DNA of 64,000 nucleotides from Aggregatilineales bacterium (lineage in GTDB: Bacteria; Chloroflexota; Anaerolineae; Aggregatilineales; Phototrophicaceae): NCBI GenBank assembly GCA_030834905.1, contig JAUQWZ010000024.1:124001-188000 (forward strand), in the 5' to 3' direction. Made by a program: the position numbers and the translations under genes. Under the pieces are notes generated by a model. The model was given only the letters and a program-made list of their open reading frames with translations. It was not told the DNA's origin and ran no database searches. Position 1 is the stretch's first letter; each line of letters starts with the position of its first letter. Positions 1,846-7,026 of this stretch are shown one piece after another.

Positions 1846-3056
<1,211 letters not shown>

Positions 3057-3064
<8 letters not shown>

Positions 3065-4334
3065 GGTCGAACAGCGCCACGTCGTCGGAGCGATTCTCTA
3101 CAACGAACGCGGCGAAGTCCTGCTTCAGCAGCGCGACCACAAGCCGAATCTGCGCTACGCGGGCTGCTGGACACTCTTTGGCGGCGCAGTGGAAGATGGC
3201 GAGACCTTTGACGAAGCCATCCGGCGCGAGCTGATCGAAGAACTCGATCTCGAAGTGCTGCTGACCTTTTGGCTGGATTATGAATGTCCGGCGCGCACAG
3301 TGCCCGGCGAAGTCGTGACCACCAATCACGTCTACGTTGGTCAGGTGCGGCGTGACCTGAACAGCCTGACGCTGCTGGAAGGGCAGGCGATGGCGTATTT
3401 CACGCCGGAAGCAGCGGCGCTTCAGCAGCTTGCTTTCGAGCAAAGCTGGCTGATCGAGCAGTTCTACCGACGGCACAATACATTACCAGCGGTTGTTGCA
3501 GCAGAAACGGCAGGTAAAGGAATGACTACCAAAACGATGACCGGCGTTGATGCAGTCACGGCGATATTTGAGCAGGCGAAAACGGAAGGGCGGGCGGCGT
3601 TTCTGCCGTACTTTCCCATAGGTTATCCCACTTACGACGCTTCACTGGACGCGATCACGGCGATGGCGGCACTGGGCGTGGATGGCTTTGAGATCGGCAT
3701 CCCCTTCAGCGATCCGCTGGCGGATGGTCCCGTGATTCAGGCGGCGACGCAGATCGCGCTGGAGAACGGCATGACAACGCGCCGGTGCCTGGAAGCGGTA
3801 CGCGAATTACGAGCGCGCGGCGTGACGCAACCGATGCTGCTGATGGGCTATCTCAACCCGATACTGGCATACGGCGTTGAAGCGTTTGTGGCGGACGTGA
3901 AAGCGGCGGGCGCGGAGGGCTTGATCGTGCCCGACCTGCCGCCGGATGAGGGTGAGTTCATTGCAGAAGTATGCCAGCGCGAAGGTCTGGCGCTGGTGTT
4001 CTTCGTCGCGCCCACCAGCAGCGACGAGCGAATCGCGCTGGTGGCGCAGCGGGCAACCGGCTTCATCTATGTGGTGTCGCTGACGGGCATCACCGGCGAG
4101 CGTAAGGAACTGCCCGCCGATCTGACCGAGTTCGTCTCACGTCTGCGTAAACAGACTCGGAACGTGCCGCTGGTGATGGGCTTCGGCATCAGCACACCGG
4201 AGCATGTGCGTCTGGTGAGCCAGCTGGTGGACGGCGTCATCGTCGGCAGCGCCATCGTCCGCGCGGGCAAAGCGGGGACAGAGGCGGTCAGGACACTGAC
4301 TCAGGCGCTGCTAGAAGGACTTAGTGCTGAGTGA
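3057..4334 (+). CDS. trpA: Nudix hydrolase-tryptophan synthase alpha chain in-frame fusion
   Basis: One 425-codon frame encodes two domains. Residues 1-145 are a Nudix hydrolase: the box at 43-62 runs G-x5-E-x7-REL-x-EE, with the metal-binding Glu residues present. Residues 156-425 are a complete TrpA, which cleaves indoleglycerol phosphate to indole and G3[16 protein letters not shown] holds the catalytic Glu212 and Asp223, and [20 protein letters not shown] and [10 protein letters not shown] follow. The linker at 142-156 is short and Ala-rich. No stop separates the domains, but Met156 (ATG 3522) has an AGGT-like sequence 7 bases upstream, so TrpA alone could also be made by internal initiation. 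The start overlaps trpB by 8 bases. Confidence 0.88.
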
Positions 4335-4428: not shown

Positions 4429-4458
4429 TTGACAGCGCTTCAACAACCGTGTTATGCT
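4429..4458 (+). promoter_or_regulatory. Sigma-70-type promoter of the aroH-aroF-tyrA unit
   Basis: A perfect TTGACA at 4429-4434 is followed after 18 bases by TATGCT at 4453-4458. Predicted transcription start is near 4465, about 30 bases before the leader reading frame. It is one of the strongest promoter matches in the window and separates the aro unit from trp. Confidence 0.7.
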
Positions 4459-4495
4459 CTGCGACTAGAGATCTGAGGTGTTCAGGACTATTTTC

Positions 4496-4588
4496 GTGAC
4501 CAGCTTCGCCCAGCCGAACCGCTATGCTTATTACTACTACTTTAGCGGCGACATAGTCGAGGGTCGGGCGTTGCCTACTGCGAAGTAG
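4496..4588 (+). CDS. Putative Tyr/Phe-rich leader peptide of the aro operon attenuator
   Basis: A 30-codon frame starts at GTG 4496 with AGGA at 4484-4487, 8 bases upstream, and stops at TAG 4586. Codons 10-16 read Tyr-Ala-Tyr-Tyr-Tyr-Tyr-Phe, with another Phe at codon 4. An alternative in-frame GTG at 4478 would add two more Phe codons. It sits between a promoter and a terminator hairpin, directly ahead of chorismate mutase, DAHP synthase and prephenate dehydrogenase. This is the arrangement of enteric pheA/trp leaders, in which ribosome stalling at scarce charged tRNA prevents termination. The layout is seen in the sequence; the mechanism is inferred. Confidence 0.7.
   Translation: MTSFAQPNRYAYYYYFSGDIVEGRALPTAK
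4575..4588 (+). promoter_or_regulatory. GNRA-capped hairpin over the leader stop codon
   Basis: CTACT and AGTAG pair around a GCGA tetraloop, and the 3' arm contains the leader stop codon. AAGTAGT (4583-4589) can instead pair with ACTACTT inside the Tyr codon run (4536-4542). The two structures are mutually exclusive, as expected of ribosome-controlled folding. Confidence 0.5.
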
Positions 4589-4610
4589 TCGGAATAAACC
4601 GGGTGCATTC

Positions 4611-4646
4611 AAGGCGCAGAGCAATACGCTCCGCGCCTTTTTTATT
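4611..4646 (+). terminator. Rho-independent terminator (attenuator) before aroH
   Basis: AAGGCGCAGAGC pairs with GCTCCGCGCCTT (11 of 12 positions, one A-C mismatch) around a 5-base loop. A run of T follows directly. It lies between the leader peptide stop and aroH, so it would end transcription unless an alternative fold forms. Confidence 0.85.
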
Positions 4647-4673
4647 TTCGCGGGCAGACACGAGGAAGCACAG

Positions 4674-5084
4674 ATGATTAAACTTCGAGGCGTGAGAGGA
4701 GCGACGACGGTGGAGGAGAATACGCACCAAGCCATCCTGAGCGCAACGCGGGAACTGCTGGACGCCATCATCCAGGAAAACGACATTGACGAGGAGGATG
4801 TCGCCAGCGTGCTGTTTTCGACCACGCCGGATTTGAACATGTGCTTCCCGGCGAAGGCAGCCCGTGACCTGGGCTGGCATCGGACGGCGTTGATGGGTTT
4901 TCAGGAGATCGATCATCCTGAGGGGATACCGCGCTGTATACGGGTGCTGATTCACTGGAACACGCCCAAGAGCCTGGACGAGATCAAGCACGTCTATATG
5001 GAACGGGCGCTGGTGCTGCGCCCGGATTTGTTTCCCTATCCCGATAACAAGGTCGTAGTGCAATCGAAAGAGGAAGTCCGATGA
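4674..5084 (+). CDS. aroH: Chorismate mutase, AroH class
   Basis: Monofunctional trimeric chorismate mutase (B. subtilis AroH fold) that converts chorismate to prephenate, the branch point to Tyr and Phe. At 136 aa it has the family signatures: the N-terminal [11 protein letters not shown] with its active-site Arg, [10 protein letters not shown], and [10 protein letters not shown] near the C-terminus. The start ATG has a GAGGAAG ribosome site 8 bases upstream. It is the first structural gene behind the Tyr/Phe leader and overlaps aroF by 4 bases. Confidence 0.95.
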
Positions 5085-6097
5085 TTGTCATCATGAAACT
5101 GACCGCGACTGCCCGCGATATTTCCAATGTTATCGCGCGGGTGAAGATGGATGGCTACGAGGCGCACCTGTCCGAAGGCGAAGCGCATACGATTATCGGG
5201 CTGGTGGGCGAAAGCCCAACCCCGCTGCGCGAGGATCATTACAGTACGATGGACGGCGTGGATCGGGTGGTGCGCGTGTCGTCGCCCTACAAGCTCGCCA
5301 GCCGCAACTACCACCCGAACGATACGCTGGTGGCGCTGAACGGCTCGCACGCCGGTTCAAAGCAGGTGCTGGTGATTGCCGGTCCGTGTTCGGTGGAAAG
5401 CCGCGAGCAGACCATCGAGATCGCTCACGCCGTCAAAGAGGCGGGCGCGACGGCGATGCGGGGCGGGGCATTCAAGCCGCGCACGTCGCCCTACAGCTTC
5501 CAGGGACACGGCGAAAAGGGATTGCAGTGGCTGGCGGAAGCCCGCGAACAGACCGGGCTGCCCATCGTCACCGAAGTGATGGATCCGGCGCTGGTGCCGA
5601 TGGTATGCGACTATGCCGACGTGCTTCAGGTGGGGGCGCGCAACATGCAGAATTTCGCCCTGCTGCACGCGGTTGGCGAAAGCCAGCAAACGGTGCTGCT
5701 CAAGCGCGGCATGGCGAACACCATGGAAGACCTGCTTATGTCGGCTGAATACATCCTGTCGCATGGCAACAGCCGCGTCATGCTGTGCGAGCGCGGTATC
5801 CGCACCTTCGAGAAATACACCCGCAACACCTTCGACGTGAACGCGATTCCAGTGTTGAAGGCGCGGTCGCATCTGCCGGTGATCGCTGACCCAAGCCACG
5901 CGGTTGGCTACTCGGAACACGTCACGGCGATTGCGCTGGCGGCGGTGGCGGCGGGCGCGGACGGCTTGATCGTCGAAGTACATCCCTGCCCGGCAGAAGC
6001 CATGAGCGACGGGCGGCAGAGCCTCGATTACGATGGCTTCAGGAAGATGATCGACTCGGTGCGCCTGGTCGCAGAAGCGGTGGGGCGGACGGCATAA
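5081..6097 (+). CDS. aroF: 3-deoxy-7-phosphoheptulonate synthase with N-terminal regulatory domain
   Basis: DAHP synthase, the first step of the shikimate pathway (PEP + erythrose-4-phosphate). The 338 aa chain has the layout of the Thermotoga maritima enzyme. An N-terminal ferredoxin-like domain (about 1-70, MIVIMKL start) binds Tyr/Phe for feedback inhibition in that family, and a catalytic barrel follows with [47 protein letters not shown] and DPSHA. Allosteric inhibition by Tyr/Phe would match the Tyr/Phe leader upstream. ATGA overlap with aroH; the stop shares a base with the tyrA start (TAATG). Confidence 0.96.
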
Positions 6098-7026
6098 TGT
6101 CAGCCGATGGCTTTACTGGCGGCGCGATGCCCGGCGGCTTTCGCGCTCATCATCTGGCGGTGGTTGGACTTGGCTTGATGGGCGGTTCGCTGGCGCTGGC
6201 GCTGCGACCCTACTGCCAGACGATCACCGGGATTGAACTCAACGAGGCAGCGCGCGGCTACGCGCAGCAGCAGGGGGTAGTCGATCAGACGACTGACGAT
6301 CTGCGGGCAGGCGTTGCCGAGGCAGACGCGGTCATCCTCGCCGCGCCGGTACGAGCAATCATCAGCCTGACGCGCGGGCGCATTGGTTCGTACCTGCGCT
6401 CAAATACGCTGCTGATTGACATTGGCAGCACGAAAGAGGATATTTGTGATGCCATGGGGACGCTTCCAATCGGTATTCAGGCGGTCGGCGGTCACCCGAT
6501 GACGGGCAAGGAATCCAGCGGCGTTGAAGCCAGTGACGCGGCGCTGTTCCACCACCGCCCGTTCGTGCTGTGCGCCACCCGCCGCACAACACCTGCCGCG
6601 CGGCTGCGGGCGCTGGCGCTGATCGAGGCAATTGGCGCGGTGCCGATTGAGATGGACGCGCACAAACATGACCGCGTGGTGGCGGCAATCAGCCATCTGC
6701 CGTATTTGTTAAGCGCGGCGCTGGTGGCAACGGTGGCTCAGGAAGGGCAAAAAGACGACTCGGTCTGGAAGCTGGCGGCGGGCGGTTTCCGCGATATGTC
6801 GCGGCTGGCTGCCAGTGACCTGGACATGATGAATGACATCCTCAGCACCAATTCGCAGGCGGTGGCGACGATGCTGGCGCTGTTCCGAATGCAGTTGGCG
6901 ATGATCGAGGCGCGGCTGATTTCAGAAGAAAACGGCAGGCTGCTGGAACTGCTCGAACCCGCGCGCGAGGCGCGGCTGTCGTGGGCGAACGGCGGGCAAG
7001 ACAAACTACAGGTGCAAAAAACTTAA
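6097..7026 (+). CDS. tyrA: Prephenate dehydrogenase
   Basis: NAD(P)-dependent oxidative decarboxylation of prephenate to 4-hydroxyphenylpyruvate, committing flux to tyrosine. The 309 aa chain has a Rossmann nucleotide site VVGLGLMGGSLA at about 22-33. GGHPMTGKESSG follows with the catalytic His, then ISHLPYLLSAAL and WKLAAGGFRDMSRLA of the helical dimerisation domain. There is no C-terminal ACT domain, so Tyr control is more likely at the DAHP synthase or transcript level. No pheA (prephenate dehydratase) is seen in this window. Confidence 0.94.
   Translation: MSADGFTGGAMPGGFRAHHLAVVGLGLMGGSLALALRPYCQTITGIELNEAARGYAQQQGVVDQTTDDLRAGVAEADAVILAAPVRAIISLTRGRIGSYLRSNTLLIDIGSTKEDICDAMGTLPIGIQAVGGHPMTGKESSGVEASDAALFHHRPFVLCATRRTTPAARLRALALIEAIGAVPIEMDAHKHDRVVAAISHLPYLLSAALVATVAQEGQKDDSVWKLAAGGFRDMSRLAASDLDMMNDILSTNSQAVATMLALFRMQLAMIEARLISEENGRLLELLEPAREARLSWANGGQDKLQVQKT

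Follow-up and report, generated by a model that had tools for sequence, protein, structure and literature searches.

The aroH-aroF-tyrA genes of this Aggregatilineales bacterium adjoin its trp operon, and the short region between them raises the question of how their expression is controlled. We analysed the locus within the window, a stretch of 64 kb from an assembly of 5.29 Mb. In the window, aroH (4674..5084; TIGR01796, 137 bits) encodes a monofunctional chorismate mutase and is followed by genes for an aroF-type DAHP synthase (5081..6097; NF006421 / TIGR01361) and for a prephenate dehydrogenase family protein, tyrA (6097..7026), which matched many prephenate dehydrogenase models at scores below the curated equivalog cut-offs. 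All three genes are on the forward strand, as are the leader features described below, and protein family matches indicate that their products make the precursors of Tyr and Phe. Beyond tyrA lie aroA and aroE, then aroC at a greater distance. On the other side, the end of trpA precedes aroH by about 340 nt. The trpA frame (3006-4334) has Pfam matches to NUDIX at residues 24-145 and to Trp_syntA at 188-426, and is possibly a NUDIX-TrpA fusion. Between trpF and trpB, a frame of 146 aa (1405-1845) had no match in Pfam or NCBIfam.

The region between the end of trpA (4334) and the start of aroH (4674) contains a promoter, a short leader frame, and a terminator. The sigma-70-type promoter (4429..4458) consists of TTGACA (4429-4434), an 18-nt spacer with TG before the -10, and TATGCT (4453-4458), and matches the consensus at 10 of 12 positions. 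Behind an AGGA Shine-Dalgarno sequence (4484..4487), a predicted leader peptide gene of 30 codons (MTSFAQPNRYAYYYYFSGDIVEGRALPTAK; 4496..4588) runs from a GTG start codon at 4496 to a TAG stop codon at 4586-4588. Its codons TAT GCT TAT TAC TAC TAC TTT (4523..4543) encode the run YAYYYYF; when the 300 nt preceding aroH were dinucleotide-shuffled 5000 times, only 0.2% of the shuffles contained at least six Tyr or Phe in nine codons. A Rho-independent terminator (4611..4648) follows, made up of a hairpin at 4611-4639 (-18.8 kcal/mol) and a U tract, ahead of the AGGAA Shine-Dalgarno sequence of aroH (4663..4667). The preliminary description of this DNA had reported the promoter, the 30-codon frame with its Shine-Dalgarno sequence and aromatic run, and a strong terminator, all of which we found in place. 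The full leader folded more stably than its shuffles (z -2.4). Scanning both strands of the 64 kb for short frames rich in regulatory codons with a strong terminator yielded no second element of this kind, and the only match to the terminator in the genome was the one in the aroH leader. Upstream of pheA in this genome, a search for a leader with Phe codons found none.

Folding predictions pointed to mutually exclusive structures in this leader. Segment 1 (4503..4524) forms the 5' side of a protector hairpin, 1:2, by pairing with 4543-4574 (-27.5 kcal/mol), with the Tyr codons in its loop. Segment 2 (4563..4574), which is the tail of the leader gene and contains a core, GCGTTGC, that the family alignment shows to be conserved, can pair with segment 1 or, alternatively, with the 5' arm of the terminator (3:4). 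The latter pairing gives an antiterminator, 2:3 (4568..4622), in which 4568-4592 pairs with 4599-4622 (-17.2 kcal/mol) and which shares the terminator 5' arm; a full antiterminator had previously escaped tracing by eye. The preliminary description had reported a 7-bp pairing of the Tyr codons with AAGTAGT (4583-4589). That complementarity is real: the run matches the sequence around the stop codon better within loci than across loci (z -4.1), and this may help keep the RNA closed when no ribosome is present. It is not the main switch, however, because the main protector joins the leader tail to the first part of the run and the codons preceding it. A GNRA-capped hairpin noted at the stop codon, CTACT-GCGA-AGTAG (4575..4588, 5 bp), is likewise present as one among competing folds; its sequence is not conserved, and what matters most is its place within the stretch that 2:3 encloses.

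Taken together, these features suggest that the aroH leader is a ribosome-mediated transcription attenuator with the layout of the trp and pheA leaders, a reading to which we assign a probability of about 0.93 on sequence comparison and modelling. It would sense charged tRNA-Tyr, and probably tRNA-Phe, to control aroH-aroF-tyrA and possibly the downstream aro genes. A short frame with clustered end-product codons, an intrinsic terminator between the leader and the first gene, and an antiterminator that uses the terminator 5' arm are all found here. So is a protector that, by computed folding and comparison across loci, excludes the antiterminator and would be broken by a ribosome on the codons.

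The analysis was extended to related loci by searching for PF07736 (AroH) across the family, order, class, and phylum and taking up to 600 nt upstream of each match; these whole-genome family searches were chosen after a protein-pattern scan of contigs gave a single relative. Counterpart leader frames were present in most related loci. At least five Tyr or Phe in nine leader codons occurred in 125 of 155 related Chloroflexota aroH loci (0.9% of shuffles) and at least six in 52% (0.03% of shuffles). A terminator was also present in 120 of the 125. With an alternative filter, requiring at least four of Tyr, Phe, and Trp plus a terminator, the element was counted in 73 of 89 loci of the same family, in 33 of 37 loci elsewhere in the order, in 38 of 49 elsewhere in the class, and in 2 of 28 elsewhere in the phylum. 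Since the class and order loci were drawn in part from the best-scoring matches, these counts do not give unbiased frequencies. The preliminary description had tied its reading to homologous aroH loci retaining the Tyr codons and the terminator, and most loci of the family, order, and class retain both. Across 135 loci, the runs contained 481 Tyr, 324 Phe, and 7 Trp codons, which fits the earlier proposal that Tyr is the main signal. The distance from the last aromatic codon to the terminator was 76 +/- 7 nt, and 68 of 79 loci in the same family have the promoter hexamers ahead of the run, where 0.4 would be expected.

Some loci depart from this pattern. Runs are weaker in some members of the family; those of one genus have 3 to 4 aromatic codons. 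The automatic leader finder chose the wrong frame in L002 and L112; the L002 leader, identified by eye as MDTTARAHLYFSYRNYTHHILGR, has its own terminator. Neither a leader nor a terminator was found upstream of aroH in three same-family loci, L051, L107, and L117, the last from the same genus. There, aroH lies directly 3' of a closely preceding trpA, so it is probably transcribed from the trp operon; we count these three loci in favour of the attenuator reading. Among the 28 loci from other classes of the phylum, 6 have a strong aromatic run. Aromatic-rich leaders were seen before aroH in L182, L207, L198, and L184 from such classes, and in the first three a strong hairpin is present without a run of four T's behind it, which suggests that the termination step may differ in those loci.

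When 37 family leaders were aligned with MAFFT and folded with RNAalifold, the terminator alone was recovered, probably because mutually exclusive pairings and gaps mask the rest. We therefore compared own-locus with cross-locus pairing energies by permutation among 87 non-redundant loci. Own-locus pairing was stronger for 1:2 (-28.4 versus -24.0, z -10.7) and for 2:3 (-11.6 versus -10.8, z -4.2), whereas the control pairing 1:3 showed no such difference (z 0.1). The mean advantage for 2:3 is small (0.8 kcal/mol), however, and the loci are related by descent, so that such tests overstate their independence. Segment 2 and the terminator 5' arm also co-vary between clades through compensatory changes (AGCGTGGAG/CTTCACGC, AGGCGCTGAG/CTCGTGCCT, and GACGCGGC/GCCGCG). 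Comparison between loci, which the preliminary description had named as a check, thus backs both 1:2 and 2:3. A further small hairpin directly 3' of the run (4549..4566), CGAC...GTCG in the window, appears in relatives as CCAC...GTGG or CTAC...GTAG, with the general form CNAC...GTN'G; its middle pair is kept in 24 of 33 loci, compared with 14.8 +/- 2.4 in shuffles. A conserved G/T-rich stretch follows soon after this hairpin, a position that suggests a possible RNA polymerase pause hairpin.

We considered whether the leader could act in other ways. The nascent peptide might arrest the ribosome by binding a free aromatic metabolite, as in TnaC-like systems, with no sensing of tRNA charging. In favour of this, the leader is conserved and has aromatic residues, and a tail of the form xIxxGALRAG recurs in the family. 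However, residues outside the run show no conservation across the class, the run is free to vary in length and between Tyr and Phe, and the recurrent tail is accounted for by the pairing of segment 2 with the terminator arm together with the covarying hairpin, making an arrest peptide very unlikely.

Less likely still is that the terminator merely ends the upstream trp operon and that the Tyr-rich frame is incidental. The terminator does lie between two operons, with the end of trpA only some 340 nt upstream, but a conserved promoter separates it from trpA, and the element also occurs where no trpA could be found ahead of aroH. The explanation is likewise contradicted by a run far above chance, a narrow spacing, and conserved alternative pairings. 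Equally improbable is a riboswitch or protein-dependent antitermination, in which a ligand or protein binds the leader RNA and the frame is secondary, since its one indication, a very weak match to the trpB motif (RF04312, a riboswitch candidate of Firmicutes and Fusobacteria in Rfam; 22.6 bits, E 4.1), is far under the gathering cut-off of 59 and the family alignment has no conserved unpaired core beyond the codons and pairing segments. At curated cut-offs, no Rfam 15 family matched the window leader or 12 related loci, and the T-box covariance model (RF00230) had no match in the aroH leader.

If the leader is an attenuator, the position of the ribosome should determine which structure forms. 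Folding with and without a ribosome on the run, a check proposed earlier, revealed a switch in RNA truncated before the terminator 3' arm. Averaged over loci, the probability that the terminator 5' arm pairs upstream was 0.23 in free RNA and 0.63-0.65 when a ribosome occupied the run, but 0.25 when the ribosome stood at the stop codon; the corresponding values for the window leader were 0.18, 0.52-0.58, and 0.35. When segment 2 was shuffled, the contrast was weaker but not nil (0.19, 0.45-0.49, and 0.35). In complete RNA at equilibrium, by contrast, the switch was not seen, as the terminator was favoured at every ribosome position. The switch must therefore rest on the order of folding, and such kinetic control is generally assumed for attenuators of this layout.

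Sequence and comparison show the leader frame, its codons, the terminator, the alternative pairings with their conservation, and the promoter. From these we infer that the leader is translated, that the ribosome stalls on its aromatic codons, that folding follows the kinetic order given here, and that the operon is regulated in the cell by these steps. When Tyr and Phe are ample, the ribosome would reach the stop codon at 4586 and mask segment 2 and the antiterminator stem. Since this stop codon lies inside that stem, a ribosome finishing the leader would block the antiterminator, allowing the terminator hairpin (4611-4639) to form. If the leader is not translated, the 1:2 hairpin (4503-4524 with 4543-4574) would hide the base of the antiterminator and also lead to termination. 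When charged tRNA is scarce, a ribosome stalled on 4523-4543 would open 1:2 and free the RNA from 4568 onward. The antiterminator (4568-4592 with 4599-4622) could then form before the terminator 3' arm is synthesized, and RNA polymerase would read through into aroH.

Control of the neighbouring pathway branch appears to be different. The trpE leader of the same genome, which lies outside the window (L206:2730-3006; G000:C58:118729-119005), matches the T-box model (RF00230) at 104 bits, and by our reading of the alignment its specifier position appears to be UGG (Trp). In all, four T-box matches occur in the genome, none of them in the aroH leader, and those besides the trpE leader are near apparent valS, trpS, and pheS genes. 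The T-box loci L210, L212, and L213 are on contigs C58, C31, and C52 of this genome (G000), and L212 and L213 score under the Rfam cut-off. Beyond this genome, the conserved leaders likely represent an attenuator family spread across the phylum Chloroflexota. It would respond to tRNA-Tyr and tRNA-Phe together, which has not been described before for the mechanism, and would stand next to a trp operon under T-box control. The two branches of the pathway would then each have their own sensor of tRNA charging.

Among known systems, the enteric pheA leader (E. coli pheL) has a short Phe-rich leader, alternative hairpins, and a terminator just ahead of the operon. The aroH leader resembles it in its end-product codons, its alternative hairpins and antiterminator, and its terminator before an aromatic-pathway operon. 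In contrast to the Phe codons and gammaproteobacterial operon of pheA, it has mainly Tyr codons with Phe and precedes a Chloroflexota operon that opens with a stand-alone AroH-type chorismate mutase. In trpL, the ribosome at the leader stop codon masks segment 2; the proposed mechanism shares this step and the switch logic with trpL of Proteobacteria and Actinobacteria, where the regulatory codons specify Trp instead. The T-box (RF00230) is another sensor of tRNA charging with a terminator/antiterminator at its end, but it binds uncharged tRNA directly and has no translated leader. Until the hisS leader was described in Firmicutes, the only leader-peptide systems known were those of Proteobacteria and Actinobacteria (PMC2965389). 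Rfam once held His, Leu, Thr, and Trp attenuators, with Ile/Val and Phe ones also described (PMC3766115), and his attenuators in Firmicutes have since been added (PMC9413887). Those proposed Firmicutes his leaders (PMC9413887, PMC2965389) are, like the aroH leader, members of the class from outside Proteobacteria that were recognized through the same kind of comparison, but they have His codons and belong to another phylum.

In the open-licence papers searched, we found no report of leader-peptide attenuation in Chloroflexota and no example of Tyr as the main attenuator signal. The mechanism is thus known, while the phylum and the Tyr/Phe specificity are unreported in the literature searched, and these two features make the aroH leader worth reporting. 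If confirmed, it would add a further phylum to the range of the mechanism, with widespread use there at a single gene, and would imply coupling of the ribosome and RNA polymerase at the aroH locus in these bacteria. It would also offer a natural comparison, within one genome, between a T-box that responds to Trp and a stalled ribosome that responds to Tyr and Phe on adjacent branches of the same pathway.
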